Shown here: piece by piece, positions 6,152 through 23,843 of the stretch
Position numbering within the stretch: position 1 is the first letter of the stretch
Layout of the letters: every line of letters begins with the position of its first letter
Source: Bifidobacterium psychraerophilum
Lineage (GTDB): Bacteria > Actinomycetota > Actinomycetes > Actinomycetales > Bifidobacteriaceae
Assembly: GCF_000741705.1 (NCBI RefSeq)
Contig: NZ_JGZI01000008.1
Coordinates: forward strand, 124,001 to 188,000
DNA: 64,000 nucleotides
Reading direction: 5' to 3'
Translations under genes and position numbers: made by a program
The notes under the pieces: model-generated
The model's database searches: none
Told to the model about the DNA's origin: nothing
The model's input: only the letters and a program-made list of their open reading frames with translations

Positions 6152-6176
6152 AACCAAATGGTATCGCAGTGCCACA

Positions 6177-6193
6177 ATATGCATTTTGCGTAT
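6177..6193. promoter_or_regulatory. Candidate LysR operator
   Basis: Dyad ATATGCA-TTT-TGCGTAT (7-3-7, one mismatch) in the 69-base gap between the divergent LysR and EamA genes. Its position and dyad form fit a LysR recognition site. This is an inference from symmetry and location only. Confidence 0.4.
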
Positions 6194-6220
6194 CAGAGTG
6201 CGCTCAGTAGCGTCGCTTGT

Positions 6221-7099: not shown

Positions 7100-7211
7100 C
7101 TCCCAACGAAGTCACGGGGTTCTATATGGAGTGGAAGCGCATATGCGGCAGCAGACTGAAGAAAAGGGAAATCAAACCAATCAGGCCAGGGGTTTGAGCA
7201 ACGATCATCTG

Positions 7212-7249
7212 GTGGAGCTAGCCGGGTTCGAACCGGCGACACTCTGCTT
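7212..7249 (-). repeat. Partial tRNA-Ala copy (far attachment-site repeat)
   Basis: 29 bases (7212-7240) are identical to 9142-9170, and after one mismatch the match continues for 8 more bases (to 7249). This covers the discriminator base, acceptor 3' strand, T arm and 3' side of the anticodon stem of tRNA-Ala. The 5' half of a tRNA is absent, so it is not a functional tRNA gene. It marks the far end of the integrated element. Confidence 0.85.
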
Positions 7250-7581
7250 TGTTTAACCGGATTGTGGATGGATCCGATAGCTAACGGATGATACTGAAAG
7301 CGTTGAGATATAAGTAAATCTACGCAAGCGTGACACCTAGTGGAATTGGCAGAAACATGCGAAAACTTGAGGTCATCGTGTCTGGATCGTGTGTGTGGGG
7401 ATGTCTGTTTGGGAGTGTAGAAATTATAGATAGAGGGTTTTGGATTACACAATCTAGCATTCTCTGCAGGTCATTGTTACCTTTGTCCGGATCATTGAGA
7501 GATTGCTTTGTCTGGGTTTTCCAGGACAGGGGTTACTGAGTACTCCTTTGTGTGCTTTTGTTAAATCGAGACAGGTTCATC

Positions 7582-8499
7582 ATGCTGCAGTTTATGAAAG
7601 ATTATTCAGGGCTACTCACGAGCTTCCTTAATTTATTTATTGCCCTGTTGAGCGTGGGTACGGCATTGAGACTAGCGCTAAAAGGGCATGTATCTAAGAG
7701 CCTAGGAGCCCGCGCGTGTGAGGCGGTGAAGGAGCTGGGCGATTTGGATAAAGTCGATGCCGCTCTCTTCCAAGGGAAGAAGCGGATAGTCGTCGATCGG
7801 GAACGCTCACGATTGGAAGATGAAATTGCCCAGGGTTTCGCCTATAGACAATTTAAAATCTATTTTAGAAAGCATATATCAGAGGCAAATAAAGAGTTGA
7901 GAGTGCAGCAGCGGTCACTCGATTTTATGTGGTGGTTGGTCGTTGGGTTCTTTGTCCCGATACCCTTTATGAGTATTTTCCCTCTATTGGCTGACATATC
8001 TCAGGGTCCTGGCAACTTTCCGGAGACGGGGGGCATCAAAGTGCTTTTTCTGCTGGCCGGTTCATCGTTCCTCTTAGTTTTCTCAAGCACTTTTGTTAAT
8101 TTGTTGTGGCAGGAGAAGGTCATTAGGTTAGGTTTTGATAAGTTCATTGCGGCTCAGGTTAATCTAAGCAATCCTGAGCGGACGGGTAGCGTTTTGTATG
8201 ACAGAAAAGCCTTCGAGCAGTTGGAGCGGTATTGCATCGATCATAAAAGGCATGCTTGGGTCTATAGGATTCCCGGTTTATTGACGGGGACGAGTTTTGT
8301 AGTTGCTGTTATTCTTGTCGCTTTCGCGAAGGCGGGTGGTGGTAGGTTTTCAACCATCATGGGTGTTGGATTGGTGTTGTATCTGTTCTTTTTGTTGCTT
8401 ATTCTCGTGGAAATGATTGTCTACTTTGTGTGGCAATTTTTTGGGAACGATCCTTATCGTTTCAGCAAAAAACAGTTTGAAGATATCAAAGTGAGGTAA
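7582..8499 (+). CDS. AT-rich multi-pass membrane protein of unknown function (island cargo)
   Basis: About 305 residues if started at ATG 7582; a GTG at 7552 in frame is possible, and ATG 7594 also. I do not recognise the family. About five hydrophobic stretches are visible: near residues 7-32, 114-137, 152-177, 233-255 and 263-290. Between the first and second lies a charged, helical region with many Lys, Arg and Glu (about 35-110), likely cytoplasmic, and another between the third and fourth (about 178-232). The gene is intact although the primase and integrase beside it are broken, and it uses AT-rich codons unlike its neighbours. This suggests recent transfer and perhaps selection for its function. 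A phage- or defence-related role is possible but not shown. Confidence 0.7.
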   Translation: MLQFMKDYSGLLTSFLNLFIALLSVGTALRLALKGHVSKSLGARACEAVKELGDLDKVDAALFQGKKRIVVDRERSRLEDEIAQGFAYRQFKIYFRKHISEANKELRVQQRSLDFMWWLVVGFFVPIPFMSIFPLLADISQGPGNFPETGGIKVLFLLAGSSFLLVFSSTFVNLLWQEKVIRLGFDKFIAAQVNLSNPERTGSVLYDRKAFEQLERYCIDHKRHAWVYRIPGLLTGTSFVVAVILVAFAKAGGGRFSTIMGVGLVLYLFFLLLILVEMIVYFVWQFFGNDPYRFSKKQFEDIKVR

Positions 8500-8504
8500 G
8501 TGGT

Positions 8505-8890
8505 TTCTTGATCGTAGCCTGACTCATGTTCCAGGTGTTTCCGGTGGTTTTGATGTATCTGCCGTGGTTGAAGAATTCGATGTTTTTGTTTTGTAGCTGG
8601 GCTCTGGTGGAGTGCGCGAAGATGTGCGTGCCTTCCCTGGAGATGCTGATTTCCTGGTAGGTCCATTGTTCGCTGATGCCGTCGATGACCTGTCGGGCGA
8701 GGAGGCTGGTGAGTTGTCCGTCGTGCAGGCAGTGGTCGAAGTCCCAGCAGGCGAAGCGGTGACCGAGCATGAAGCTGTAGCCGGCCCCCGGTCTGCATGT
8801 TCGAGAAGGTGTGCTGGGATCGGTGTTGGATACCGGGTACCGTGTGGGGCCTGTGAGAGGGGCGTAACTGGGCTTTGTGTCTACATGTTG
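8505..8890 (-). pseudogene. N-terminal fragment of phage/plasmid prim-pol-type primase
   Basis: Reading leftward from about 8890, one open frame gives TKPSYAPLTGPTRYPVSNTD, then GAGYSFMLGHRFACWDFDHC, then TYQEISISREGTHIFAHS and HGRYIKTTGNTW. This follows the order of the N-terminal primase-polymerase domain of phage and plasmid replication proteins: the Pro-Ser/Asp-Pro-Ser-Thr region, the acidic DFDHC-type catalytic motif, the EIS..GTHI motif and the GRYxxxTG motif. The homology stops after that, where a full protein would continue for several hundred residues with a helicase part. It has no clear start and is a remnant. It converges on the membrane-protein gene. Confidence 0.65.
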
Positions 8891-9102: not shown

Positions 9103-9142
9103 GAAAACCCTCGGAAAGCTACTGTTTCCAAGGGAAGAACTG

Positions 9143-9215
9143 TGGAGCTAGCCGGGTTCGAACCGGCGACCCTCTGCTTGCAAAGCAGATGCGCTACCAG
9201 CTGCGCCATAGCCCC
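9143..9215 (-). tRNA. tRNA-Ala (TGC)
   Basis: 73-base cloverleaf read on the minus strand: 5' acceptor GGGGCTA, D stem GCGC, anticodon loop TTTGCAA with anticodon TGC, T loop TTCGAAC, and discriminator A. CCA is not encoded. Its 3' part is the attachment site of the degraded element on its left (29-base exact repeat, 9142-9170). It lies 28 bases from tRNA-Ile on the same strand. Confidence 0.95.
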
Positions 9216-9243
9216 GAAATACTGAATTGCGGAAAATCTCGCG

Positions 9244-9317
9244 TGGGCCCGGGAGGACTTGAACCTCCGACCTCATCCTTATCAGGGATGCGCTCTAACC
9301 ACCTGAGCTACGGGCCC
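9244..9317 (-). tRNA. tRNA-Ile (GAT)
   Basis: 74-base cloverleaf on the minus strand: acceptor GGGCCCG, anticodon loop CTGATAA with anticodon GAT, T loop TTCAAGT, discriminator A. It is upstream of tRNA-Ala in the same direction, so the two are probably cotranscribed. Confidence 0.95.
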
Positions 9318-10238: not shown

Positions 10239-11366
10239 CTACGCGGCCGGAATCGCTTCCAGAACCCCCTCACAGCTTTCACGCAGCAGCACGCTCACGG
10301 GCATCTCGGTGGAGTATGGCGGGTCGTCCGGGTGTTCGATGCGTTTGACCACGGTGCTCACCGCCGCACGTCCAAGATTGACCATCGGCTGCCTGACCGT
10401 GGTCAGACGGGGATGGGATGTGTCGGACTCCTCGATGCCATCGAATCCGGTGACGATCACATCATCCGGCACGCGAAGTCCGGCTTGGGTGAGTGCGTCC
10501 AGCGCGCCGAGTGCCATCTGATCATTGGCGCAGACCAGGGCCTGTGGCAGGTCGCCTCGCTCGATGAGGTCCTGGGTGATTTTCTTCGCCGTGGGACGCG
10601 AGAATTTGCCCCTATAGATAGGTATCGATTCCGGGCTGATGCCGCGCGCGGCCAAGCCTTCCTGGAAGCCCACGTATCGCTTGTGGTTATCGGGTGAGTC
10701 GTCGGGCCCTGCCATATAGATGAAGCTTCGGATCTGATGGGCGTCGACCAGATGCTCGACGAGTGTGCACATGCCTTTTCTGTTGCTCACGCGGACGAGG
10801 TCCATGCTCTTCTCACCGCCGATCGGAGCGTCGGCGACCATGACCAGGGGAATCCGCTTGACCAGGGATTCGATGAGTCGGTCTGGAACGCTTCGGGCGA
10901 GGATGATGACCCCATCGACCTTGCCGATCATGTCGTGCACCATCTGATTCACATCGGATTCGCCTCTTCCCTGGCCGATGCTGACCATCAGGGAAAGCCC
11001 CTGGCTCCATGCCTCCAATTCGCATCCACGGAGCACATGGTCGAAGTACAGGGAGTCGCGATGTATTCTGCCGGTGACGGGACGGTCCACATGTATCTCG
11101 GCGGTGTCATGGTCGGTCAGTTCGAAGTCGCTGAGCGTCTCCAGCTCATCGACATTCGGCAGGAAGAGACCGATGATCCCTGTTTTGCGCGCGGCAAGGC
11201 TGCGGGCGCTGCCGCTGGGCACATATCCGAGCTGCTGCACTGCCGTTTCGATGGACTCCCGCGTTGCCTGCCGTACGCTCTCCGGCTTGCGGAGCGCCCG
11301 GGAGACGGTTGCTATGGATACACCCGCCTGCTCGGCGACGTCATAGACTGTCGGTTTCTTGGCCAC
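10239..11366 (-). CDS. LacI-family repressor of the glucan locus
   Basis: 375 residues. The N-terminal helix-turn-helix reads PTVYDVAEQAGVSIATVSRA, followed by a periplasmic-binding-like sugar-sensing domain to the C-terminus. The GTG start at 11366 is preferred because GGAGGG lies 5 bases before it; a TTG four codons upstream overlaps that ribosome binding site. The gene is divergent from the transporter and glucan enzyme genes. Three LacI-type dyads lie in the shared gap, so it most likely represses the locus and possibly itself, with release by a glucooligosaccharide. Confidence 0.9.
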   Translation of the reverse strand: MAKKPTVYDVAEQAGVSIATVSRALRKPESVRQATRESIETAVQQLGYVPSGSARSLAARKTGIIGLFLPNVDELETLSDFELTDHDTAEIHVDRPVTGRIHRDSLYFDHVLRGCELEAWSQGLSLMVSIGQGRGESDVNQMVHDMIGKVDGVIILARSVPDRLIESLVKRIPLVMVADAPIGGEKSMDLVRVSNRKGMCTLVEHLVDAHQIRSFIYMAGPDDSPDNHKRYVGFQEGLAARGISPESIPIYRGKFSRPTAKKITQDLIERGDLPQALVCANDQMALGALDALTQAGLRVPDDVIVTGFDGIEESDTSHPRLTTVRQPMVNLGRAAVSTVVKRIEHPDDPPYSTEMPVSVLLRESCEGVLEAIPAA

Positions 11367-11419
11367 GTTGCCCTCCAAAACCTGTTTTCATACATTTCTT
11401 TCACGATAAGGCATAACTG

Positions 11420-11453
11420 TAGCGCTATTTTCACATTCTTGAGAGCGCTATCA
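11420..11453. promoter_or_regulatory. Two LacI-type operator cores near the repressor gene
   Basis: TAGCGCTA at 11420-11427 is an 8-bp palindrome. TGAGAGCGCTATCA at 11440-11453 is a 14-bp dyad with one mismatched pair. Both share the AGCGCT core, centred on CG as in LacI-family operators, and are 23 bases apart. They lie about 55-90 bases upstream of the repressor start, so they could serve autoregulation or looping with the site at 11550. Confidence 0.6.
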
Positions 11454-11536
11454 TTCGGCGTGTCGAATTGCGTATCGTCCAGAAACGTTGAAATATCAAT
11501 GTTTTTAGTCATGTAAGAAAATGTAAAAACGCGAAC

Positions 11537-11565
11537 TTGCGTAAGTCAATGTAAGCGCATACAGT
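11537..11565 (+). promoter_or_regulatory. Promoter of the glucan locus with overlapping LacI operator
   Basis: -35 TTGCGT (11537-11542) and -10 TACAGT (11560-11565) are separated by 17 bases. The dyad TGTAAGCGCATACA (11550-11563, one mismatched pair, CG centre) covers the spacer and most of the -10. A repressor bound there would block RNA polymerase directly. Transcription from about 11572 would give a leader of about 100 bases before the binding-protein gene. Confidence 0.6.
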
Positions 11566-11672
11566 TGTTGCAAGTCAAGGCTAGTGACCTGGGTCATTCC
11601 GGGGAGCTGGTAGACGCGCGTGGGGGTAACCACATCCGCGCATCCTTGTCAACGAGGACAGAAAGATTATCA

Positions 11673-13322
11673 ATGATGAAGAAGAGAATCGCAATGCGGA
11701 TCTCCGCAGCGCTCGTCGCCGCCGCAACTTTGTTCGGCGTCGCAGCTTGCGGAAACAGCACCGCAAATAGTTCAGGCGACGCAAGTTCGAGCTCCGAGCT
11801 GCTCTTTGGTGGAGACAGCGGAAGCCCAACCTTCGTACGCAACTTCAACCCATTCTCGACCAGCAAGCGAATCGGCATCAACTTCATGTACGAGCCGCTC
11901 GAAGTCGTCAACGCCATCGACGGCACCTCAACACCATTCCTGGCCACCGGCCACAAGATCGTGGATGCCAAGACCATCCAATACACGGTTCGTGACGGTG
12001 TGAAGTGGTCGGACGGAACCGCATTCACCGCGGATGACGTCGTGTACACCTTCAACCTGATCAAGAAGAACGCCGCTCTGGACACCCTGGGTGTCTGGCA
12101 GCACGTCGATTCGGTCGAATCCTCAGGCGATACCGTGACCTTCCACCTGAAGACCGCCGATGTTCCCGCCGTGACCATCATCAACCAGCAGCTGATCGTC
12201 CCCAAGCACATCTGGGAAAAGGTCAGCGATCCCGTCAAGTGGACCAACGAGAACCCTGTGGCCACCGGCCCATACAGCCTCGACACCTTCACCCCGAACC
12301 AGTACACGCTTAAGAAGAACACCACGTACTGGCAGAAGGACAAGGTAGCCGCAGAGAAGATCGTGCTGCCGGCATCCAACAAGCAGCTCGACTTGGTCAA
12401 CAAAGGCTATGACTGGGCATATTCATACATGACCAATGTCGACAAGACCTGGGTTGGCGCCGACAAGCAACACAACCACTACTGGTTCCCTCCGGGCGGC
12501 ACCGTTTCGCTCTTCCCGAACCTCACCAAGGCTCCTTACAACGACGTGAACTTCCGCAAGGGCCTGAGCTACGCCATCGACCGCAGCAAGATCGCAAAGG
12601 ATGCTGAAGAAGGCTACGTCGAAGGCGCCACGCAGACCGGTCTGCTCCTCCCCAACCAGGAGAAGTGGGTCAACACCTCCATCGCCAACAAGGGCAATAT
12701 CGATCAGAGCAAGAGCAAGGCGCTTGAGTACTTCGCCAAGGCCGGCTACACCGAGAAGGACGGCAAGCTCGTCGACTCCTCAGGTACCCAGCTTGTGCTG
12801 AACATCACCGTTCCGAACGGCTACACCGACTGGCTCCGTGGCGTGCAGACCCTGCAGTCGCAGCTCTCCGCCCTCGGCATCTCGGTCAAGCTGACCCAGC
12901 CGCAGCCTGCCGCCTACACACAGGCCCAGAACAACGGCGACTTCGATCTGATCGTTTCCTCCTTCGGTGGCAGCGGCAGCATCTTCCAGGATTACAACAA
13001 CTTGCTCAACAGTGAGTTCGCTCTTCCTGTCGGACAGTCCACAACGGCTAACTTCCAGCGTTACAAGAACACCGACACGGATAAGCTGCTCGCCGAGCTC
13101 AAGGTGGCCACCTCCGAGACCGATCAGAAGAAGATCGTCGACGAGTTGCAGAACGTGGTCTACGACCAGGTACCTGTGGTCAGCATGTTCTACGGCGGAC
13201 TCTGGGGCCTCTACAGCACCAAGAAGTTCACCGGTTGGCCAAGTGCCGACAACCCATACGCTCCTCCGAGCACATGGACCCAGGCCAACCTCTTGATCGT
13301 CACCAACCTCAAGAAGGCCTGA
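11673..13322 (+). CDS. ABC transporter substrate-binding lipoprotein (family 5, Opp-type)
   Basis: 549 residues. The start MMKKRIAMR follows AGGACAGAAAG; the upstream in-frame ATG at 11565 overlaps the promoter. The signal peptide ends in a lipobox, LFGVAACG, with the lipid-bearing cysteine, then a Ser/Ala-rich linker. The rest is a family 5 extracellular binding protein (KWSDGTAFTADDVVYTFNL is the signature region). Family 5 proteins bind oligopeptides, but a subgroup binds cello-, laminari- or manno-oligosaccharides. Context with GH94 and GH3 enzymes argues for a beta-glucooligosaccharide. It is the first gene of the transporter operon. Confidence 0.88.
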   Translation: MMKKRIAMRISAALVAAATLFGVAACGNSTANSSGDASSSSELLFGGDSGSPTFVRNFNPFSTSKRIGINFMYEPLEVVNAIDGTSTPFLATGHKIVDAKTIQYTVRDGVKWSDGTAFTADDVVYTFNLIKKNAALDTLGVWQHVDSVESSGDTVTFHLKTADVPAVTIINQQLIVPKHIWEKVSDPVKWTNENPVATGPYSLDTFTPNQYTLKKNTTYWQKDKVAAEKIVLPASNKQLDLVNKGYDWAYSYMTNVDKTWVGADKQHNHYWFPPGGTVSLFPNLTKAPYNDVNFRKGLSYAIDRSKIAKDAEEGYVEGATQTGLLLPNQEKWVNTSIANKGNIDQSKSKALEYFAKAGYTEKDGKLVDSSGTQLVLNITVPNGYTDWLRGVQTLQSQLSALGISVKLTQPQPAAYTQAQNNGDFDLIVSSFGGSGSIFQDYNNLLNSEFALPVGQSTTANFQRYKNTDTDKLLAELKVATSETDQKKIVDELQNVVYDQVPVVSMFYGGLWGLYSTKKFTGWPSADNPYAPPSTWTQANLLIVTNLKKA

Positions 13323-13342
13323 TACCAGGTCCCCCGATCCTC

Positions 13343-13375
13343 GGTGCCCGCACGATGATGTGATGGGCGGGCACC
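13343..13375 (+). other. Hairpin between binding protein and permease genes
   Basis: GGTGCCCGC and GCGGGCACC form a 9-bp stem with a 15-base loop, 20 bases after the binding-protein stop. No T run follows. Such intra-operon hairpins commonly stabilise or partly terminate the mRNA so that the binding protein is made in excess over the permeases; that role is inferred. Confidence 0.55.
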
Positions 13376-13467
13376 ATTGGATGCAGACGGGTGGTGATGA
13401 TGGTCAGCCGCTTCGGAACCATCGCTCACCGCCCGTGTTTTAATGCCAATACGCGAAAGGTCATCTC

Positions 13468-14448
13468 GTGCGTTACTTTCTAGGGAAAATAGGTTTATTC
13501 CTGCTGACACTGTGGGCTGCAGTGACGGTCAATTTCATACTTCCGAGGATGATGCCTGGTTCGCCTGCTGATGCAGCAATAGCGAAACTCGCACAGAATG
13601 GCCCGGTGACTCCGGCGCTGCGTGCTTCCATCGAAGCCCAGCTCGGTGTGCCCAAGGGCAACCTCCTGAGCCAGTACTTCCAATACCTCAACAATGTGAT
13701 CCACCTCAATTTCGGTGTGTCATACAGCAACTTCCCTGCGAACGTATCTGACCTTGTCGGTGCCGCCCTTCCCTGGACGATCACCCTGGTTGGCGTCGTC
13801 ACCATTCTTTCCTTCGTCATCGGCACCGTGCTCGGCGCCGTGATGGCCTGGAAGCGCGGCAGTGCAGTGGATGCCACCGGCAGCGTCGGCAGCTCCTTCC
13901 TCTCCGCATTCCCCCCATTCTGGCTCGCTCTCATGCTGCTCTACTTCCTGGGATACGTCACGGGACTCTTCCCGACTTCCGGCTCCTACTCGGCAAGCGC
14001 CGTTCCGGAATTCAGCGCCTCATTCTTCGGCGACGCGTTGTACCACGCGATCCTGCCAGGCCTGACGATTCTGATCACATCCCTCGGCGGATGGATCATG
14101 GGTATGCGCAATACGATGATCAGCACACTCGGCGATGACTACGTCACCTTCGCGGAGGCCAACGGCCTGCACCAAGGCACGGTCATGCTCAAGTATGCGG
14201 CCCGAAACGCGCTGCTCCCGAACCTTACCTCTTTCGGACTGGTGCTCGGAGGCGTGGTCGGAGGATCACTGCTCGTCGAGCAGGTCTTCAACTACCCGGG
14301 CGTGGGTCTGCTGCTCTTCCAAGCGGTGACCAACCAGGATTACCCGCTGATGCAGGCGCTGTTCCTGATGATTACGGTGAGCGTGCTTATCGCCAACTTC
14401 ATCGTTGATTTGCTCTACGGCGTGCTCGATCCAAGGACAAGAAGGTGA
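13468..14448 (+). CDS. ABC transporter permease (DppB/OppB-type)
   Basis: 326 residues with about six membrane segments. It starts with GTG 13468 behind GAAAGG. The N-terminal TM segment and FILPRMMPGSPAD motif are typical of OppB/DppB permeases, and the EAA loop is in DDYVTFAEANGLHQGTVMLK near residue 230. It forms the membrane pore with the next gene. Its stop overlaps the GTG start codon of the second permease. Confidence 0.9.
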   Translation: MRYFLGKIGLFLLTLWAAVTVNFILPRMMPGSPADAAIAKLAQNGPVTPALRASIEAQLGVPKGNLLSQYFQYLNNVIHLNFGVSYSNFPANVSDLVGAALPWTITLVGVVTILSFVIGTVLGAVMAWKRGSAVDATGSVGSSFLSAFPPFWLALMLLYFLGYVTGLFPTSGSYSASAVPEFSASFFGDALYHAILPGLTILITSLGGWIMGMRNTMISTLGDDYVTFAEANGLHQGTVMLKYAARNALLPNLTSFGLVLGGVVGGSLLVEQVFNYPGVGLLLFQAVTNQDYPLMQALFLMITVSVLIANFIVDLLYGVLDPRTRR

Positions 14449-15413
14449 GTTCCATGACATCGACTTCACAAACACCAGCTTCGGACGCTCCGAAGCACGG
14501 CAACAAACCACAGAAGATCGCCAAGCACAACAGCGATAACGCCCTGGTGCGCGGTCTCAAGGTGGCGGGACGCGGCATCGCGACCGTCTGGAGCGTACCG
14601 AAGGCACGCTTCGGCATCATTCTGCTCTCCCTGATCATTCTGAGCGCCATATTCGCACCGCTCATCAGCCCTTATGATCCCAAGGCGACGGGTTTTGAGG
14701 CAGGCGCCAACCCCACCATGGACCATTGGCTGGGAACCACGGCCAACGGACAGGATGTGCTTTCCCAGTTGATCTGGGGCGGACGCATCTCCGTGCTCGT
14801 CGCACTCGTCGGTGGTCTGCTTTCCACATGCATCGCAGTCATCGTCGGTCTGAGCTGGGGCTATATCCGGTCCTTCTTCGGTGAGTTCATCGGATTCATC
14901 GTGAACCTGTTCCTCGTGATCCCTTCCCTGCCTCTGATGATCGTTGTGGCCGCATATCTCCAGAACGGCGGCATGGGGGTCATCATCCTGGTGATCGTCC
15001 TGACTGGTTGGGCCTGGGGCTCACGAGTCCTGAGAAGCCAGACGCAGTCCCTGCGTTCGCGCGATTTCGTGACGGCCGCCTCCTTCAGTGGGGACAGCTC
15101 GCCTCGCGTGATCTTCCATGAGATCTTCCCCAATATGCTGTCGCTGATCATCAACAACTTCTTCGGGGCTGCCACGGCCGCCGCGTTGGCTGAAGCGGGT
15201 CTGGAGTTCCTGGGTCTCGGGGATTCCACCACGGTCAGCTGGGGCACGATGATTTATTGGGCACAGAACAACAATGTCCTGCTTACCGGCCAATGGGCAC
15301 TGCTGCTGGCGCCCGGCCTGATGATTGCACTGCTCGCGGTCTCGATGACGTTCATCAACTTCGGCGTCGACCGTTTGAGCAACCCGCGTCTGCGTGAAGG
15401 GAGCTCACGATGA
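14445..15413 (+). CDS. ABC transporter permease (DppC/OppC-type)
   Basis: 322 residues. The GTG at 14445 overlaps the preceding stop; ATG 14454 (MTSTSQTP) is an alternative start. It has a hydrophilic N-terminus of about 60 residues, then about six TM segments. ISPYDPKATG and LGTTANGQDVLSQLIWGGR are classic OppC/DppC motifs, and the EAA loop includes RSQTQSLRSRDFVTAASFSG. Its end overlaps the ATPase gene by four bases, so the three are translationally coupled. Confidence 0.9.
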   Translation: MSSMTSTSQTPASDAPKHGNKPQKIAKHNSDNALVRGLKVAGRGIATVWSVPKARFGIILLSLIILSAIFAPLISPYDPKATGFEAGANPTMDHWLGTTANGQDVLSQLIWGGRISVLVALVGGLLSTCIAVIVGLSWGYIRSFFGEFIGFIVNLFLVIPSLPLMIVVAAYLQNGGMGVIILVIVLTGWAWGSRVLRSQTQSLRSRDFVTAASFSGDSSPRVIFHEIFPNMLSLIINNFFGAATAAALAEAGLEFLGLGDSTTVSWGTMIYWAQNNNVLLTGQWALLLAPGLMIALLAVSMTFINFGVDRLSNPRLREGSSR

Positions 15414-17062
15414 GCCTGCTGAAAGTCCAGAACCTTTCGATCGAATACGACACCCCTGGTATCGAAGCGGTCAAAGCTGTGACCGATGTCAACTTCGAGT
15501 TGGAGCAGGGCGAGTTCGTCGGACTTGTCGGTGAATCGGGATCGGGTAAGTCAACGCTCGGTTTCGCCATCACCAGGCTCTCCAAGCCGCCGGCACGCAT
15601 TTCCGAAGGAAGTGTGCTGTTCAACGGCAAGGACATCACGACCCTCAGTGACGAAGAGCTGCGCCGCCAGCGCCAGGGCGGTTTCGCCATGGTGCTGCAG
15701 TCAGGTATGAACGCGCTCAACCCGGTTCGTACCATCCGCAAGCATTTCCAGGACATCTTCAAAGCGCATAAGCATGTGGCGAAGGACCGTTGGGAAGCGC
15801 GCAGCGAGGAGCTGATAGGCAAGGTCGGTCTCCCGAAGAGCACGCTTTCGAGGTACCCCGGGGAGCTTTCCGGAGGCATGCGTCAGCGCGTTTCCATCGC
15901 CCTCGCACTGTCACTCGACCCGAAACTGATGGTCTTCGATGAGCCCACCACCGCGCTTGACGTGCTGGTCCAGCATGATGTGATGCGCACGATCCGCGAG
16001 CTGCAGAAGTCGGAAGGCTTCACGGCCGTGCTTATCAGCCATGATCTGGGTGTGGTGCTCGAATCGACGCAGCGCGTCCTGGTGATGCACAACGGCCATA
16101 TCGTCGAGGATGCCTCAAATGCGGACATTCTCAGCCATCCCAAGGATGACTACACGAAGATGCTGTTGAGCCATTACGGCGACCCCCGTGCGGAGGAGGT
16201 TTCCGTCCCGGGGCTGAGCCCTCGCGGAACCGCCAAGTACGAAGGTGCGGCCCAGGATCTCGATAGCCTGACCATCACCGTCAAGGACATCTCCAAGACC
16301 TACCCTGCGCGCAAGCGTGGCGAGCAGCCAGTCAAGGCCGTCAGCAATGTGAGCTTCACATTGAAGCCGGGAGAATCCCTGGCACTGGTGGGCGCTTCGG
16401 GCTCGGGCAAATCCACCATCGCCAAGATGATAACGGGCGTCGAGAATCCGACCGAAGGCAGCATCACGCTCGGTAACACGCATGTTGAGCGTATGCACAG
16501 CAAACGCGATCTGCGCAAACTGCATTCGGATATCCAGATGGTGTTCCAGGATCCGTACGCGGCCCTGAACCCACTGCACAATGTGGAATACATCCTGACC
16601 CGGCCGATCGTGAATTACACCAAGCTGCGTGGTGAGGATGCGCGCAAGCGGATGCTCGAATTGCTGGAGACCGTCGGTCTGACGCCAGTCGAGCAATTCG
16701 CCGCGAAGCTTCCCCATCAGCTTTCGGGTGGGCAGCGGCAGCGCGTCGTGATCGCAAGGGCCCTGGCGAGCGATCCCAAGGTGCTGGTGGCGGATGAACC
16801 GGTTTCCATGCTGGATATGACACTTCGCGCGGGCATTCTCGCCCTGCTCGATGATCTGCGTGTGCGTCTGAACGTGAGCATGCTGTACATCACCCACGAC
16901 CTGCTCAGTGCACGACTGATCACCGATCGCATCATGGTGCTCAACCACGGTCAGATCGTCGAACGAGGGCAGACGGCTGAAGTGCTGCAGCATCCGAGCG
17001 ATGATTACACGGTTCGTTTGCTTGACGCCATTCCGAAGCTTGAAGCACACACCGAAGCGTAG
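15410..17062 (+). CDS. ABC transporter ATPase, two fused nucleotide-binding domains (DppD-DppF type)
   Basis: 550 residues holding two complete ATPase domains: first about 1-255 (Walker A GESGSGKST, signature LSGGMRQRV, Walker B LMVFDEPTTALD), second about 285-545 (Walker A GASGSGKST, signature LSGGQRQRV, Walker B LVADEPVSMLD). The second Walker B region has DEPVSMLD in place of the usual DEPTSALD. Fused OppDF proteins are common in actinobacteria. It powers import of the ligand taken up by the binding protein and the two permeases just upstream. Confidence 0.92.
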   Translation: MSLLKVQNLSIEYDTPGIEAVKAVTDVNFELEQGEFVGLVGESGSGKSTLGFAITRLSKPPARISEGSVLFNGKDITTLSDEELRRQRQGGFAMVLQSGMNALNPVRTIRKHFQDIFKAHKHVAKDRWEARSEELIGKVGLPKSTLSRYPGELSGGMRQRVSIALALSLDPKLMVFDEPTTALDVLVQHDVMRTIRELQKSEGFTAVLISHDLGVVLESTQRVLVMHNGHIVEDASNADILSHPKDDYTKMLLSHYGDPRAEEVSVPGLSPRGTAKYEGAAQDLDSLTITVKDISKTYPARKRGEQPVKAVSNVSFTLKPGESLALVGASGSGKSTIAKMITGVENPTEGSITLGNTHVERMHSKRDLRKLHSDIQMVFQDPYAALNPLHNVEYILTRPIVNYTKLRGEDARKRMLELLETVGLTPVEQFAAKLPHQLSGGQRQRVVIARALASDPKVLVADEPVSMLDMTLRAGILALLDDLRVRLNVSMLYITHDLLSARLITDRIMVLNHGQIVERGQTAEVLQHPSDDYTVRLLDAIPKLEAHTEA

Positions 17063-17092
17063 TTTCGCGTATCGATCCACAAAGGGGTTGCA

Positions 17093-17998
17093 ATGAGTTT
17101 TGAGCAACAATCACAGAAGGCCTCGGAGAAGATCCACAGCGGTCGGGTATTCAGCTCGCTGCCGATGCCTGAGGGTGTCGAGGCACTTGTTATCGAGGCC
17201 TCGGTCGGGCCGCTGACGGCCATCCATGCACCCGTTGCGGAAGGGGTGAAGGGCAAGGGCACCGCGCTCTTCATACCCGGTTTCACCGGCAGCAAGGAAG
17301 ATTTCTATGAGCTCTTCGCGCTGCTGCCTCAGCGGGGTTGGGATGTATGGGCATATTCCCAGCGTGGCCAGGGCGACTCGGTCGCGCCTAGCGGCATCGA
17401 GTCCTACGGAAGGGATCAGACCGCCTCTGACGCCTTGGAAGTCGCCGCCATCATCACGCAGGCCACGGCCTGCGATGGCATACACCTGCTAGGACACAGC
17501 TTCGGTGGACTGGTGGCCCAGGCCACGGTCATCAAGGATCCCAGCCCGTTCAGAAGTCTGACCCTGATGAGCTCAGGCCCCCACGGATGGCCCGGCCGCA
17601 AGGCGGATATCCGCGAACGCCTGCTGAACAGCGGCGGTGTGGACCTCTGGCGTCTGGATAACCCGGATAAGGCCGATTGGCCCGATGACAGGCTCGATCC
17701 CTTGCAGCGCTTCCTGCGTGAGCGTTCGGAACGCACCAGCACGGATCAGCTCATCGGAGCCATCGATCAGCTCGCGAATGTGCACGACACCACCTTCGAG
17801 GTGAAGGACACCGGTCTTCCGGCCCTGGTCTTCCACGGCATCGACGACATCTATGCCTGGCCGCAGGAGTGGCAGCACCGCATGGCGATCCTGCTGGGGG
17901 CCAGATATGAAATCATCCCCGATGCGGCCCACTGCCCGAACGGTGAGAACCCGGTGCCAACAGCCGATCTGCTTGACGATTTCTGGTCGAAGCACTGA
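17093..17998 (+). CDS. Alpha/beta hydrolase in the glucan operon
   Basis: 301 residues with the alpha/beta hydrolase fold. The nucleophile elbow is LLGHSFGG, the oxyanion region FIPGFTGSKEDF, with the acid in HGIDDIYAWP and the histidine in PDAAHCPNGE. It starts 30 bases after the ATPase stop behind AAAGGGG, so it belongs to the operon. There is no signal peptide, so it acts in the cytoplasm. It could be an esterase that removes acyl groups from imported oligosaccharides, but this is inference; the family also includes lipases and haloperoxidase-like enzymes. Confidence 0.8.
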   Translation: MSFEQQSQKASEKIHSGRVFSSLPMPEGVEALVIEASVGPLTAIHAPVAEGVKGKGTALFIPGFTGSKEDFYELFALLPQRGWDVWAYSQRGQGDSVAPSGIESYGRDQTASDALEVAAIITQATACDGIHLLGHSFGGLVAQATVIKDPSPFRSLTLMSSGPHGWPGRKADIRERLLNSGGVDLWRLDNPDKADWPDDRLDPLQRFLRERSERTSTDQLIGAIDQLANVHDTTFEVKDTGLPALVFHGIDDIYAWPQEWQHRMAILLGARYEIIPDAAHCPNGENPVPTADLLDDFWSKH

Positions 17999-18140
17999 TC
18001 GGCCGGTCGTGGGATCTCTGAACACCGAGACCTCAAGACCCCGAGCCCAGGCATCACGCGAATACAGCATTTGACGGTTGCGTGCACGAGGAATGCCGTG
18101 CATGCCGCCGCAAGAACGAGATAGAACGAAGGACACCATC

Positions 18141-21100
18141 ATGACTGTTGACACCAAAGGATCAACCATTCCCGACAAGCAGTCTGTCGACTGGAGTGTT
18201 TGGAAGCAGGGCAAGGAAACCGATCCTGTGATCACGAACGGCGATGTGGAGATCGCATTCACCGAATTCGGTGATATCGCCAGCATCAGTTCGGGAGAAC
18301 TCCAGATCTCCCAGTACCGTCCAGGTCAACATGACGCTGGTATCGCGGGGCTTTGGCTCAGGCGGCACGATGGGAACGGCATCACCAGCACGCCGCTGAT
18401 CGGTGTCTACTCCAATTCGAACTGGGGCGCGGAAGGCGGCACCGCGGTCTGGAAGGGCTCGGATCTGGGCGCTTCATGGACCGTCACCTTGGCGATCGAT
18501 CCCGAAAGCCCCACATGGGCATGGCATGTGAGTGTGGATGCTGCGGCATCCGATACCGCATCGTGGGATATCGTCACCGATCAGGATCTCGCACTGGCTC
18601 CGCGTGCCCAGGCACTCACCAGCGAACCGTACATCTCCCAGTACATCGCGTACAGAAGCGCCGATCTTCCGGGACTGGGCCGAGTGGTCGCCGCACGGCA
18701 GACCATGTCCAGCGCACCGAAGATGCCGCTGCTGGTCAGCGCCATCAAGGAGGGTGCCCAGGCACATCTCACTGACGGCTTCGACTTCTACGGCAAGCAG
18801 GCACGCCTCGGTTCACGACCGCAGATGCTGGACGATGCCACCTGGGATGGTGGCAGAACCAATCAATACGAGTTCGGCATGATCGCTCTGCTGTCGAATT
18901 CCGAGAAGGCAAGTCAGGAGGGTCTCGAATGGACCGAGGTCCTCACCTTCGACCCTGATTTCCGCGGCGAACTTCCCGATGCCTGTGAGGATTACTCCAA
19001 GAAGGCCCTGGAACGCACGGAGGCATTCCTCCCCGAGGCGCTTCGCCAGGCGGCGTCGTTGCAGTTGAGCGAAGCCGGTTCGTCCAGGTCGGCCGACGCC
19101 CACGCGCCATCCCTGCTCGCGGTCGCACCGGTGATCAACGGTGATGACCTCGCTGACGAGGAGTTGGTACGCCTTGCCTCAGGCCAGGCCCGGGATCTGG
19201 AACGCGACGACGAAGGGCATGTGCTCTCATACTTCGCCGACCGGGCAGCCCATGTGGTGGCGAAGAGCAAGGAACTGCTGGTAAGCCGCTCACATGGACA
19301 GGTGCTTCTCGCCGGAAGCGTGAACACGTCCGAACACCCGGTTTTCGCAACAACCACCTATGCCCCCGGCGTTTTCGCCTCGCATATCGTATTCGGCAAT
19401 ACGAATATGAACCGTCTGGTTTCGGTACAGCGCACCAGTCTGAACCTGCTGCGTTCCGAGGGTGTGCGCATCCTGATCCGCAAGGACGGGCAGTGGTCCG
19501 TTCTCGGCGTTCCCTCCGCATACATCATGGAATTGGGTGCTTCACGGTGGGTGTATCGCTTCGGTGAGCAGACCATCACCGTGACCACAACGGCATATGC
19601 CGACCGCGACGGCATGAGCGTCGAACTCCAGGCAAGCGAAGCCGTGGACGTTCTGATGACCGCCGACGTGGAGTTCCCGGAGAACTGGAAGATCCGGAAT
19701 GCCGGGATACCAGGACACGACCAGGCGATTGCGCTCACACCAGAGGCCGGTACCTCGGTCGCGGGCCACTGCCCCGGATTGGGCTATGTGTTCGCAGCCG
19801 ACGGTGCCGTGATCTCCAATGACGCGCCCCTCTTCGGTCAGCAGGATGGTACGCGATCCGAAGGCACCGCGCTGCTGAGCTTCTCGGAGCGACAGACGAC
19901 ATCTCTGAAGGTGGTCGTCACCGCAAGCATGGATGACGCCGACAAGGCCGTCGAGAGCGCCGCCCAGGCACTCGACGACGCGAAGACCACCGAAGAGCAG
20001 CTCGTCGCGCAGTACGCCTACATCAGCGCCTTCATGGACGACTTCAGCATCTCCACCGAGGGCAGGCTCAAGGAATGGAACGAGGGCGCACCGTGGTTCG
20101 TGCAGAACGCCCTGGTGCACTTCCTGTCCCCTCACGGTCTTGAGCAATACTCGGGCGCGGCATGGGGCACCCGTGACGTGTGCCAGGGGCCTTTCGAAAT
20201 GGCATTGGCCTTCGGCCACTTCGACATCGCGAAAGACATCATCCTCAAGGTCTTCGGGCATCAGAACCCGGACGGTTCACTGCCCCAATGGTTCATGTTC
20301 GACGAATACGCCGAGATGTTCCAGCATGATTCACACGGTGATATCCCGGTTTGGCCTCTGATGGCGGTCTACCAGTACCTTGAGGTGGGTGGCGACCGTT
20401 CCCTGCTCGAGGAGCAGGTCGATTTCTGGGATGACGCGGCGCGCACGGGTGACAAACCCACCGTGGCCGATCACCTTGAGCAGACCCTGGAATACATCCG
20501 CACGCATCGGGTGCCCGGCACCGAGCTCTTCTGCTACGGCGAGGGCGATTGGGATGACACCCTGCAACCCGCACAGCAGTCGATGAAGAAGGAGATGGCC
20601 TCCACATGGACCATCGCCCTGCTCTTCCAGGCGACAACCGCATTGCAGCGCCTCCTCAACGAGGCTGGTTGCGAGGAACTGGCACAGGAGTTCGGTGCCG
20701 AGGCCGATGGCATCAAGCGCCAGTTCGCCAAGAACTTCATCTACGACGACGTGCTCGCGGGCTATGTGGTCTTCACCGAGGATGGGCCTGTTCCGGTCAT
20801 CCATCCTGAAGATACGCGAACCGGCCTGCACTACCGCCTGATTCCCATGACCCGCTCCATCATCGCGGGTCTGCTGCCACCGGAAGGTGCGCGCAGCCAC
20901 GAGCAGCTGATCGAGGAGAATCTGCACTATCCGGATGGTGTGCGTCTGATGAACCACCCGGCCAACTATCACGATGGCGTCACCACCTACTTCAAGCGTG
21001 GTGAGCAGGCTGCGAATATCGGCCGCGAAATCGGTCTGATGTATACGCACGCGCATATCCGATACACCGAGGCGCTCGCACAGCTCGGTCGCGATTCGGT

Positions 21101-21626
21101 GGCTGACGAACTGCTGCGCATCAGCCCCGTGGATCAGTTCCAGCGGCTCGCGACCAGTGAGATCCGTCAGCGGAATTGCTACTTCGCTTCGTCGGACGCC
21201 GACTTCCCGGATCGCTATACCGCCGCTGAGCAGTGGGACCGCCTGCGTGCGGATGCCAAGGATCCGGTTGGCGTTCGTGGAGGATGGCGTGTCTATTCCT
21301 CAGGCCCCGGCATCTACCTGCGCCAGGTGATCCAGCATGTCTTCGGCCTGCAGATCCATACGGACAGCGTGGCGATCGACCCGATCCTGCAGATGCAGGA
21401 TGACGGTACCAGCGTTGACCTCGGACTCTTCGGGGCCAAGCGCACGCTGCGCTACCACCTCAGCGACGATGACGCACCCGTTGTGGCATCGGTCGACGGC
21501 AGGGAGCTGGACGGCAACCGCTATGACCTGCCATATCGCCCAGGAGGTCTGGTGCTCAGTGCAGAGGCGATCGCTGACGCCAAGGTCATCGACATCAGCG
21601 TGGGCGTGCACCGCGCGAAGATCTGA
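18141..21626 (+). CDS. GH94-family glucan phosphorylase, 1,2-beta-oligoglucan phosphorylase-like
   Basis: 1161 residues, far longer than cellobiose phosphorylase (about 800) and close to the 1,2-beta-oligoglucan phosphorylase of Listeria innocua. The N-terminal half is beta-sandwich-like; the catalytic (alpha/alpha)6 barrel lies in the second half. AAWGTRDVCQGPFEMALAFG and GEGDWDDTLQPAQ (about residue 800, with the candidate general-acid aspartates) are visible GH94-type motifs. No signal peptide, so it is intracellular. It would cut glucooligosaccharides with phosphate to give glucose 1-phosphate, saving ATP. Linkage specificity rests on length and on the GH3 neighbour. The 142 bases before it hold no promoter I can name. 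Confidence 0.7.
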   Translation: MTVDTKGSTIPDKQSVDWSVWKQGKETDPVITNGDVEIAFTEFGDIASISSGELQISQYRPGQHDAGIAGLWLRRHDGNGITSTPLIGVYSNSNWGAEGGTAVWKGSDLGASWTVTLAIDPESPTWAWHVSVDAAASDTASWDIVTDQDLALAPRAQALTSEPYISQYIAYRSADLPGLGRVVAARQTMSSAPKMPLLVSAIKEGAQAHLTDGFDFYGKQARLGSRPQMLDDATWDGGRTNQYEFGMIALLSNSEKASQEGLEWTEVLTFDPDFRGELPDACEDYSKKALERTEAFLPEALRQAASLQLSEAGSSRSADAHAPSLLAVAPVINGDDLADEELVRLASGQARDLERDDEGHVLSYFADRAAHVVAKSKELLVSRSHGQVLLAGSVNTSEHPVFATTTYAPGVFASHIVFGNTNMNRLVSVQRTSLNLLRSEGVRILIRKDGQWSVLGVPSAYIMELGASRWVYRFGEQTITVTTTAYADRDGMSVELQASEAVDVLMTADVEFPENWKIRNAGIPGHDQAIALTPEAGTSVAGHCPGLGYVFAADGAVISNDAPLFGQQDGTRSEGTALLSFSERQTTSLKVVVTASMDDADKAVESAAQALDDAKTTEEQLVAQYAYISAFMDDFSISTEGRLKEWNEGAPWFVQNALVHFLSPHGLEQYSGAAWGTRDVCQGPFEMALAFGHFDIAKDIILKVFGHQNPDGSLPQWFMFDEYAEMFQHDSHGDIPVWPLMAVYQYLEVGGDRSLLEEQVDFWDDAARTGDKPTVADHLEQTLEYIRTHRVPGTELFCYGEGDWDDTLQPAQQSMKKEMASTWTIALLFQATTALQRLLNEAGCEELAQEFGAEADGIKRQFAKNFIYDDVLAGYVVFTEDGPVPVIHPEDTRTGLHYRLIPMTRSIIAGLLPPEGARSHEQLIEENLHYPDGVRLMNHPANYHDGVTTYFKRGEQAANIGREIGLMYTHAHIRYTEALAQLGRDSVADELLRISPVDQFQRLATSEIRQRNCYFASSDADFPDRYTAAEQWDRLRADAKDPVGVRGGWRVYSSGPGIYLRQVIQHVFGLQIHTDSVAIDPILQMQDDGTSVDLGLFGAKRTLRYHLSDDDAPVVASVDGRELDGNRYDLPYRPGGLVLSAEAIADAKVIDISVGVHRAKI

Positions 21627-21647
21627 TACAAGCATCCGATAAGCAAG

Positions 21648-21673
21648 GGTCCCGCAGCCACGGTTGCGGGACC
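21648..21673 (+). other. Hairpin between GH94 and GH3 genes
   Basis: GGTCCCGCA and TGCGGGACC form a 9-bp stem with an 8-base loop, ending 16 bases before the GH3 start and just ahead of its ribosome binding site GGAGAG. It may stabilise the upstream message or tune read-through. No T run is present. Confidence 0.5.
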
Positions 21674-21689
21674 TCGGTAGGAGAGAATC

Positions 21690-23843
21690 ATGGAACAATC
21701 ACAGTTGACGGATCTGCTCGGTCAGATGACTCTCGATGAGAAGATCGGGCAGTTGCTGCAGATCACAGGCGACTTCTATTCCGATAAGGCCGAGGAACGT
21801 ACCGGCCCGATGACCCAGCTCGGACTGAACGAGGACGATCTGGCGAATGCGGGCACGGTGCTGGGCGTTACCGGTGCGGAAGAATGCCGCAAGATACAGA
21901 CCGCGTACATGAAGCGCAACCGTCTGCATATCCCGACCTTGTTCATGGGCGATGTGATCCACGGATTCCGTACGATCTTCCCGATTCCGCTCGGCCTGGC
22001 ATCGTCATGGGACGATGAGGCCGCCGAAACGATGGCGCGTGTGTCCGGCCATGAGGCTTCGGTCTCGGGTCTGTTCGTGACCTTCTCCCCGATGGTCGAT
22101 CTGGTGCGCGACCCCCGCTGGGGCCGTGTGATGGAGGCTACGGGAGAGGATCCTTACCTCAACGGCAAACTCGCCGCGGCTATGGTCCATGGCTACCAGG
22201 GTGATGACCTCCGTGGCGACACCAGTCGTGTAGCCGCATGCGTGAAGCATTTCGCTGCCTATGGCGCAGCGGTCGCAGGACGTGATTACAACACCGTTGA
22301 TATGTCCGAACGCCAGCTCCGCGACATGTATCTGCCGGGGTACAAGACGGCGATCGACGCGGGCGCAAAACTGGTGATGACATCCTTCAATACCGTTGAC
22401 GGTATACCGGCTTCGGGCAACCGTCACCTCTTCCGCGACATCCTTCGCCGCGAATGGGGCTTCAATGGCGTCGTCATCTCCGACTTCGGCGCGGTGAAGG
22501 AGATGATCTCGCACGGTGTTGCCGGAGATGAGCGTGATGCCGCGAAACTGGCCATCAAGGCCGGCGTTGATATCGAGATGATGACGGTCTGCTATCTGCG
22601 CAACCTCGGCGATCTCATCGAATCCGGGGAGATCCCGGAGCAGGTGCTTGATGAAAGCGTCATGCGCATCCTGCAGTTGAAGAACGACCTCGGTCTTTTC
22701 GAGAACCCACTGCGTGGCGCCGATGAGGCGGAGGAGCGCAAGGTGGTGATGAGCCAGAAGCACCGCAATGCCGCACGTCGTGTCAGCGAGGAATCCATCG
22801 TGCTGCTCAAGAACGAGGATGCCGCGCTGCCTCTGGATGCCGCGAACACGGTCGCGCTGCTGGGCCCCGGTGCCCGCTCCACCGATCTTCTCGGAGCATG
22901 GTCATGGAAGGGCGAGGAGCAGGATGTGACTGCTCTGGATGCCTCCCTGAACGAAGCCGGCTTCCAGGTGCAGACCACGGATGAGATCTTCGACTATCTC
23001 GACCCTTCACAGCAGGCGATCGATGCCGCGGTGCAGTTGGCGGGCAAGGTCGATGTGGTGGTCCTTGCCCTCGGGGAGCCCTCCTTCATGAGTGGAGAGG
23101 CTTCCAGCCGTTCCGACATCCGTCTGCCTCAGGCGCAGATCGAGCTGTTCAAAGCCGTCCAGGCGGTGAACCAGAACGTGATCGTCACACTGTTCAACGG
23201 ACGTCCCCTCGATTTGAGCGATGTCCAGCCAGCCAAGGCGATCGTTGAGGCTTGGTTCCCAGGCACCGAGGGAGGCCGTGCCTTGGCGGATGTGTTGCTC
23301 GGCAAGGTGAATCCTTCGGCCAAACTGACGATGTCCTTCCCCGTTAGTGTCGGACAGGTGCCGCTCTACTACAATGTGGACAACACCGGTCGCCCCTATG
23401 AGAACGATCCTGAAGGCAAATACGTATCGAAGTATCTGGATGTCTCGAATTACGCCGCCTACCCCTTCGGTTTCGGACTGAGCTACAGCTCATTCGAATA
23501 CGGTCAGGTCGAAGTCTCCGACAGCAGCTTCGATGCCGAGCATCCTTTGGAGATCAGCCTGACGCTCAGGAACACTTCGGAGCGTGCAGGAACGGAGATC
23601 GTGCAGCTCTACGTCCACGATCTTGTGGGCGAGGTGGTGCGCCCGATCAAGCAGCTCAAGGGCTATCAGCGTGTGACCCTGGAAGCGGGGGAGAGCCGAA
23701 GGGTGAGTTTCACGCTGAGCGAGCAGGATGTGCGCTATGTGCATCTCGGCGATCGTCTGGAAAGCGATCCGGGGCAGTTCGATGTGATGGTCGGGCCGAA
23801 CAGTCGAGATCTAAGCGAAGCCATCCGCGTCGAACTCTTCTGA
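21690..23843 (+). CDS. GH3 beta-glucosidase
   Basis: 717 residues without a signal peptide. The N-terminal TIM barrel carries GDVIHGFRTIFPIPLG, DPRWGRVMEATGEDPYL, KHFAAYGAAVAGRDYN and the nucleophile aspartate in VVISDFGAV. An alpha/beta sandwich domain follows (about 390-560), and a fibronectin III-like domain ends the protein (from about 610). It matches in length the Listeria innocua sophorose-preferring GH3 enzyme, which sits beside a similar GH94 gene. It would release glucose from the non-reducing end of the short oligomers left by the phosphorylase. It is probably the last gene of the operon. Confidence 0.88.
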   Translation: MEQSQLTDLLGQMTLDEKIGQLLQITGDFYSDKAEERTGPMTQLGLNEDDLANAGTVLGVTGAEECRKIQTAYMKRNRLHIPTLFMGDVIHGFRTIFPIPLGLASSWDDEAAETMARVSGHEASVSGLFVTFSPMVDLVRDPRWGRVMEATGEDPYLNGKLAAAMVHGYQGDDLRGDTSRVAACVKHFAAYGAAVAGRDYNTVDMSERQLRDMYLPGYKTAIDAGAKLVMTSFNTVDGIPASGNRHLFRDILRREWGFNGVVISDFGAVKEMISHGVAGDERDAAKLAIKAGVDIEMMTVCYLRNLGDLIESGEIPEQVLDESVMRILQLKNDLGLFENPLRGADEAEERKVVMSQKHRNAARRVSEESIVLLKNEDAALPLDAANTVALLGPGARSTDLLGAWSWKGEEQDVTALDASLNEAGFQVQTTDEIFDYLDPSQQAIDAAVQLAGKVDVVVLALGEPSFMSGEASSRSDIRLPQAQIELFKAVQAVNQNVIVTLFNGRPLDLSDVQPAKAIVEAWFPGTEGGRALADVLLGKVNPSAKLTMSFPVSVGQVPLYYNVDNTGRPYENDPEGKYVSKYLDVSNYAAYPFGFGLSYSSFEYGQVEVSDSSFDAEHPLEISLTLRNTSERAGTEIVQLYVHDLVGEVVRPIKQLKGYQRVTLEAGESRRVSFTLSEQDVRYVHLGDRLESDPGQFDVMVGPNSRDLSEAIRVELF

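Follow-up and report, generated by a model that had tools for sequence, protein, structure and literature searches.

A conserved bifidobacterial locus pairing a 1,2-beta-oligoglucan phosphorylase with an Opp-type importer, predicted to serve the use of beta-1,2-gluco-oligosaccharides

Introduction

Among the closest described systems is the lin1838–lin1843 cluster of Listeria innocua, reported to encode a LacI regulator, the 1,2-beta-oligoglucan phosphorylase (SOGP) Lin1839, the glycoside hydrolase family 3 (GH3) enzyme Lin1840, and an ATP-binding cassette (ABC) importer with the binding protein Lin1841 (PMC3960220, PMC4757417). Both Lin1839 and LpSOGP, the enzyme of Lachnoclostridium phytofermentans, are described as specific for beta-1,2 chains (PMC5309861, PMC3960220), and Lin1840 cleaves sophorose and laminaribiose (PMC4757417). 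Here, we analyze a locus of Bifidobacterium psychraerophilum, located at positions 10,239–23,843 of a 64,000 bp stretch (positions 124,001–188,000 of contig NZ_JGZI01000008.1, from here on the window), that likewise encodes a LacI regulator, an SOGP, a GH3 enzyme, and an ABC importer. The Listeria importer is presumably of the CUT1 type, whereas the one encoded here has a family 5 binding protein, OppB/OppC-type permeases, and a fused ATPase of its own, and it is accompanied by an additional alpha/beta hydrolase. The two predicted cytosolic steps are the same as those given for the Listeria cluster (PMC3960220, PMC4757417).

A second kind of cluster for the uptake and cleavage of beta-1,2-gluco-oligosaccharides, SGR_2422–2427 of Streptomyces griseus, was reported in 2025 together with similar clusters of some bifidobacteria, which encode close homologues of the Streptomyces GH1 enzyme and of a component of its ABC importer; an annotated esterase lies nearby (PMC12369401), comparable to the candidate esterase of our locus. 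That type of cluster has a Lin1841-like binding protein and operates by GH1 hydrolysis, and neither an SOGP nor an Opp-type importer is listed in the passages that describe it (PMC12369401). A preliminary description of the window had considered the use of these oligosaccharides to be a rarely described ability in bifidobacteria; it has, in fact, already been suggested in print for this different GH1 cluster (PMC12369401), but no report of an Opp-type importer paired with an SOGP was found in the titles and abstract openings of the open-licence papers listed in our searches. For this reason, we take that pairing as new. SOGPs, Lin1840, and carbohydrate-binding proteins of the Opp type were already known, and what is new is the Opp-type importer together with a conserved hydrolase.

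The same description had read the locus as one for beta-1,2-gluco-oligosaccharides served by an Opp-type importer, and our analysis largely supports this reading. The genes very probably constitute a LacI-controlled operon for the use of external beta-1,2-gluco-oligosaccharides, through Opp-type import, phosphorolysis, and cleavage by GH3 or GH1 enzymes.

Results

Conservation of the Locus in Bifidobacteria

The SOGP_N domain was found in 18 of the 189 genomes of the family, corresponding to 12 of the 27 genomes of the genus of the window and to six of another genus. The conservation set was composed of 17 fetched loci plus the window, after removal of L021, regarded as a duplicate of the L087 contig, and of L025, a fragment. 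The six genes for the binding protein, the OppB-type and OppC-type permeases, the fused ATPase, the alpha/beta hydrolase, and the phosphorylase follow one another in identical order in all 18 loci, which argues for more than a chance arrangement.

In the window, these genes lie on the plus strand and encode the lipoprotein solute-binding protein P0002 (11,673–13,322; SBP_bac_5), the OppB-type permease (13,468–14,448; BPD_transp_1), the OppC-type permease (14,445–15,413; BPD_transp_1 and OppC_N), a fused OppD/OppF-type ATPase of 550 residues (15,410–17,062; two ABC_tran stretches), the hydrolase P0006 of 301 residues (17,093–17,998; Abhydrolase_1/6), and the GH94 protein P0007 of 1161 residues (18,141–21,626). 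A GH3 protein of 717 residues is encoded next to it on the same strand (21,690–23,843), and a gene for a LacI-family regulator (10,239–11,378, minus strand; Pfam LacI and Peripla_BP_3) diverges from the operon. Reading frames and domains recovered every gene that had been listed before, including the GH94 protein with its length and its DVCQGP and DWDDTLQPA motifs, the adjacent GH3, and a family 5 Opp/Dpp-type importer with fused ATPases, to which the hydrolase between the importer and the GH94 gene and the divergent regulator are now added. The start of the GH94 gene was placed at ATG 18,141, with an open frame that extends back to TTG 18,078, and that of the binding protein gene at ATG 11,673, just 5' of the lipoprotein signal, which was preferred by eye over TTG 11,565.

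The GH94 Protein as a 1,2-Beta-Oligoglucan Phosphorylase

The assignment of P0007 to the SOGPs, proposed earlier from its length and motifs, is upheld by its domains, its nearest solved relative, and its substrate residues. Pfam matches were obtained to SOGP_N, SOGP_2nd, and Glyco_hydro_94, with the N-terminal and supersandwich SOGP domains clearly found (PF21958, 181 bits; PF21250, 148 bits) and the fourth SOGP domain (PF21270) at 24.3 bits, under the Pfam cut-off of 27. In the search of solved structures, LpSOGP (PDB 5h3z) was the best relative (E 8.9e-169), followed by two cyclic beta-1,2-glucan synthases and a putative beta-glycan phosphorylase (E 3e-6), whereas cellobiose phosphorylases appeared only from E 1.5e-4, so the protein is not nearest to the cellobiose, laminaribiose, or chitobiose phosphorylases. 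The label of cellobiose phosphorylase given to bifidobacterial GH94 proteins in one survey was assigned by family alone (PMC8074910).

Fifteen substrate-site residues named in the LpSOGP paper (PMC5309861) were mapped onto P0007, and 14 of them were identical, the exception being G623, replaced by Ser (S671). The same 14 residues were present in all 17 bifidobacterial loci with coverage of these positions (the 18th contig breaks off within the gene) and in the 40 loci from other bacteria, which were obtained in a non-exhaustive scan of named genomes with six short peptide patterns taken from a single protein (42 loci, two of them bifidobacterial). In contrast, a second GH94 protein of the B. 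psychraerophilum genome, used as a control, kept 6 of the 15 and differs at the acceptor-site positions Q621, A626, R907, R916, and Y1004, among others. In an alignment read by eye, Y141 and N138 of LpSOGP face a Tyr and a Ser, respectively, in P0007.

An Opp-Type Importer with a Binding Protein of the Carbohydrate-Binding Type

No CUT1 importer (SBP1/MalF/MalG) was matched within window positions 5001–30,000, and the importer of the locus has SBP_bac_5 and OppB/OppC-type permeases in place of the SBP_bac_1 protein and MalF/MalG permeases of a Lin1841-type system. When P0002 was compared with solved proteins by phmmer, the first 14 relatives scored 149–260 bits and the next 66 (among the best 60 of 87 matches), and a profile of 19 sequences produced the same split, with 188–325 bits for the first 14 and then a peptide binder at 104. 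Nine of these 14 are binders of the chitin-oligosaccharide type. Among the other five, one bears the name mannoside-binding; we take all five to be beta-glycan binders of Thermotoga, and 2o7i presumably binds cellulose oligosaccharides. Peptide-binding Opp/Dpp proteins were accordingly rejected as the nearest relatives, as none exceeded 66 bits among those phmmer matches or 104 in the profile search, and the preference for peptides that had been contemplated as one possible objection finds no echo in these comparisons.

The same scores bear on the possibility of a peptide transporter adjoining the glucan genes by chance. Opp/Dpp importers are generally used for peptides, and the weak solved relatives of the neighboring hydrolase include proline iminopeptidases; still, this explanation appears extremely unlikely, given that peptide binders score far under the carbohydrate binders, that all 18 loci retain the importer, and that five of the six other family 5 proteins of the same genome reach 35–66 bits (blastp) against 200–436 for six homologues from other Actinomycetota, five of which adjoin LacI, GH1, or GH3 genes. 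The sixth family 5 protein of the genome (L092, C7:15,712–16,809) was excluded, its gene having an in-frame TGA stop.

Among the Opp-fold carbohydrate binders that form a group with P0002, together with those we assign to Thermotoga, the sugar contacts of VhCBP, a chitooligosaccharide-binding protein from Vibrio, were tested by mutation, and its N409, F411, R436, and F437 lie mostly around the N-acetyl group (PMC8449061). These four residues are not kept in P0002, which fits a glucose rather than an N-acetylglucosamine ligand. On the other hand, N204, D365, and W513 have identical counterparts in P0002 (N272, D422, and W571, P0002 numbering), W363 is replaced by another aromatic residue (Y420), and S221 is kept in the window but variable. 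Across the 18 full-length proteins, the Asn, Asp, and Tyr are each present in all and the Trp in 17; the N272 reading comes from one alignment, the window residue at the N204 column having fallen in a gap in a second one. Asp at the D365 position is also found in the six homologues from other Actinomycetota and in none of the five other family 5 proteins of the own genome, at 20–25% identity and with a gap at that column in three of them. A structure model of the binding protein (four sequences) had a mean predicted local distance difference test (pLDDT) value of 37.0, too poor for a fold search.

GH3 and GH1 Glucosidases

The GH3 protein is a beta-glucosidase of the Lin1840 type (sophorose/laminaribiose), with Lin1840 as its nearest solved relative (E 5.7e-215). 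The nucleophile D270 and the subsite +1 residues R572 and Y583 of Lin1840 are kept as D265, R568, and Y578, and the subsite +1 residue W271 corresponds to F266, also aromatic. Its gene lies directly 3' of the phosphorylase gene in 11 of the 18 loci and is absent there in six. The last locus is cut off by the end of its contig, and two other contigs of that genome contain pieces of a close GH3. The six loci without it have a GH1 gene instead, in five of them directly after the phosphorylase and in one after a CUT1 set, and no close GH3 was found elsewhere in these six genomes (best 281–291 bits), compared with at least 997 bits in the ten genomes where the match at the locus is continuous and two pieces of 615 and 414 bits in the eleventh (G119). 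These GH1 proteins may be of the Streptomyces griseus GH1 type; a GH1 enzyme of B. adolescentis is reported to prefer sophorose (PMC9024363).

The locus with the CUT1 set (genome G023; L072, L116) has SBP1, MalF, and MalG genes between those for the phosphorylase and the GH1 and, consequently, both importer types in one locus. Remnants of a second LacI gene were observed in this CUT1/GH1 region, in L068 and L071 and, weakly, in L073, and none was found in L069 and L070.

As Lin1840 also splits laminaribiose (PMC4757417), the importer might carry some other beta-gluco-oligosaccharide (laminari-, cello-, or mixed-linkage), with the phosphorylase acting on its products or in the synthetic direction; three of the six family 5 relatives from genomes with no SOGP detected do adjoin other GH1 or GH3 genes. 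We regard this as improbable, because LpSOGP and Lin1839 are beta-1,2-specific (PMC5309861, PMC3960220) and 14 of the 15 substrate residues are retained here, and because this importer type accompanies an SOGP in each of the 18 loci and its binding protein does so in two Streptococcaceae metagenome-assembled genomes (MAGs).

The Alpha/Beta Hydrolase and the Possibility of a Decorated Substrate

P0006 has a candidate triad, S136, D252, and H280, that is invariant in the 18 loci, and no signal peptide was seen by eye. No phmmer match to it at E 1e-5 was obtained in the 40 non-bifidobacterial loci, some of which are short contigs. Its best solved match is a proline iminopeptidase (E 1.4e-6), with macrolide esterases and an epoxide hydrolase near 1e-5. 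We consider this candidate esterase as probably stripping an acyl group from the imported sugar, which is the least certain step of the proposed pathway.

A refinement of the beta-1,2-gluco-oligosaccharide reading would follow, in which the importer is specialized for acylated beta-1,2-gluco-oligosaccharides or plant acylated sophorosides, and the hydrolase deacylates them in the cytosol before phosphorolysis. We put it forward tentatively, as a minority option. It is favored by the constancy of the hydrolase in the bifidobacterial loci and its apparent restriction to them, by the presence in at least three of the 18 genomes of a CUT1 and GH1 cluster that could take the plain oligomers, by a related hydrolase encoded alongside GH1 and GH3 genes at another site of the B. 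psychraerophilum genome, and by the annotation of SGR_2422, a neighbor in the S. griseus cluster, as an acetyl-esterase (PMC12369401). Against it, the hydrolase has no close solved relative, and its structure model (two sequences; mean pLDDT 45.8) was too poor for a fold search and gives no substrate reading. The region with the related hydrolase (L120, on C7; 117 bits) shows genes for an MFS transporter, this hydrolase, a GH1, and a GH3 in a row, with a CUT1 set nearby on the other strand.

Putative Operators

A putative LacI operator of 14 bp, TGTAAGCGCATACA, is located upstream of the binding protein gene (11,550–11,563) and is identical in the 18 loci. A second putative operator, TGAGAGCGCTATCA, centered on AGCGCT, lies at 11,440–11,453, and an AGCGCT-centered site is found 109–113 bp upstream of the first one in 13 of the 18 loci. 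Allowing up to one mismatch, the first site has a single copy in the B. psychraerophilum genome. Of the 18 genomes, 16 have one copy each, G005 has five, and G006 has six. A looser AGCGCT palindrome was found at six places of the own genome (one at the locus) versus three for the reversed control, and it was not used further. The LacI gene occupies the same place in 15 loci, the stretches of the other three ending before it, and the encoded protein would bind the putative operator. Just upstream of the locus, genes for tRNA-Ala and tRNA-Ile adjoin each other on the minus strand (window 9142–9317).

SOGP Loci of Other Bacteria and Separate Histories of Importer and Phosphorylase

The contrast with CUT1 importers drawn in the preliminary description holds in 29 of the 40 non-bifidobacterial loci, where a CUT1 binding protein and the two permeases are encoded within the stretch, including that of Listeria goaensis (L047; SBP1/MalF/MalG). 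Among the rest, three showed weak permease matches only, six none (some of them short contigs), and two a family 5 binding protein. The uptake solution, therefore, differs from that of most of the other loci, as had been proposed, but Opp-type carbohydrate importers were already known elsewhere.

Both family 5 loci belong to Streptococcaceae MAGs, and in each the contig ends inside the binding protein gene. The encoded proteins are of the same type as P0002 (54–58% identity over the N-terminal part) and adjoin an SOGP of another clade, with a Glycoamylase-domain protein (PF10091) between the two genes in one of the MAGs. In L040, a locus of a Streptococcaceae MAG, an open frame of 1099 residues (5339–8638) upstream of the SOGP gene gave no Pfam match at E 0.001.

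In a quick SOGP tree, which excluded L021, L025, L061, and L085, the bifidobacterial enzymes group in a single clade, adjacent to six from Cellulomonadaceae/Promicromonosporaceae (CUT1 loci), and the two MAG enzymes fall among Bacillota. In a quick tree of binding proteins, the one from the MAG clusters with those of the bifidobacteria (support 81, or 99 with one more actinobacterial protein). As the trees place the MAG phosphorylase and the MAG binding protein differently, importer and phosphorylase appear to have come together on at least two occasions, an impression that derives from a 224-residue fragment of the MAG binding protein and from trees without bootstrap, in which long branches and uneven composition were flagged.

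Within the bifidobacteria, the four importer proteins of L063 (G024) are 67–78% identical to those of the window, and its LacI, hydrolase, phosphorylase, and GH3 are 75–89% identical; in L064, the importer is 93–98% identical and the phosphorylase 76%. This pattern would fit an exchange of the importer block.

Discussion

In the pathway that we propose, the family 5 lipoprotein would capture an external beta-1,2-gluco-oligosaccharide, and the OppBC-type permease with its fused two-domain ATPase would import it whole. Once in the cytosol, the alpha/beta hydrolase would probably remove an acyl group first, the GH94 enzyme would release glucose 1-phosphate by phosphorolysis of chains of at least three units, and the sophorose left over would be split by the GH3 or, in six relatives, by the GH1.

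Several observations weigh against this pathway. Family 5 homologues (31–44% identity) are present in six other actinobacterial genomes with no SOGP_N domain detected, which indicates that specificity for beta-1,2-glucans does not extend to the entire clade of binding proteins, and W513 is kept in only one of these six. Moreover, at least three of the 18 genomes (L117/G017, L118/G118, and L119/G119) have a separate LacI–SBP1–MalF–MalG–GH1 cluster, so the Opp-type system may serve something other than plain oligomers. Finally, the Glycoamylase family, in which we include GH144 and GH189, is present in one of the 18 genomes and went undetected in the other 17; among endo-beta-1,2-glucanase families, this was the one searched.

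The second of these points would be accommodated if bifidobacteria had an Opp-type route reserved for acylated beta-1,2-gluco-oligosaccharides or acylated sophorosides, taken up in their intact decorated form and then processed by a cytosolic esterase, an SOGP, and GH3 or GH1 enzymes, beside a separate CUT1 and GH1 route for the plain oligomers in some species, a possibility that we raise as a conjecture with less than even prospects. The operon for beta-1,2-gluco-oligosaccharide use described here predicts a substrate for a class of importers usually annotated as peptide transport, and the loci compared would provide a natural series in which importer and hydrolase change and the phosphorylase stays the same.

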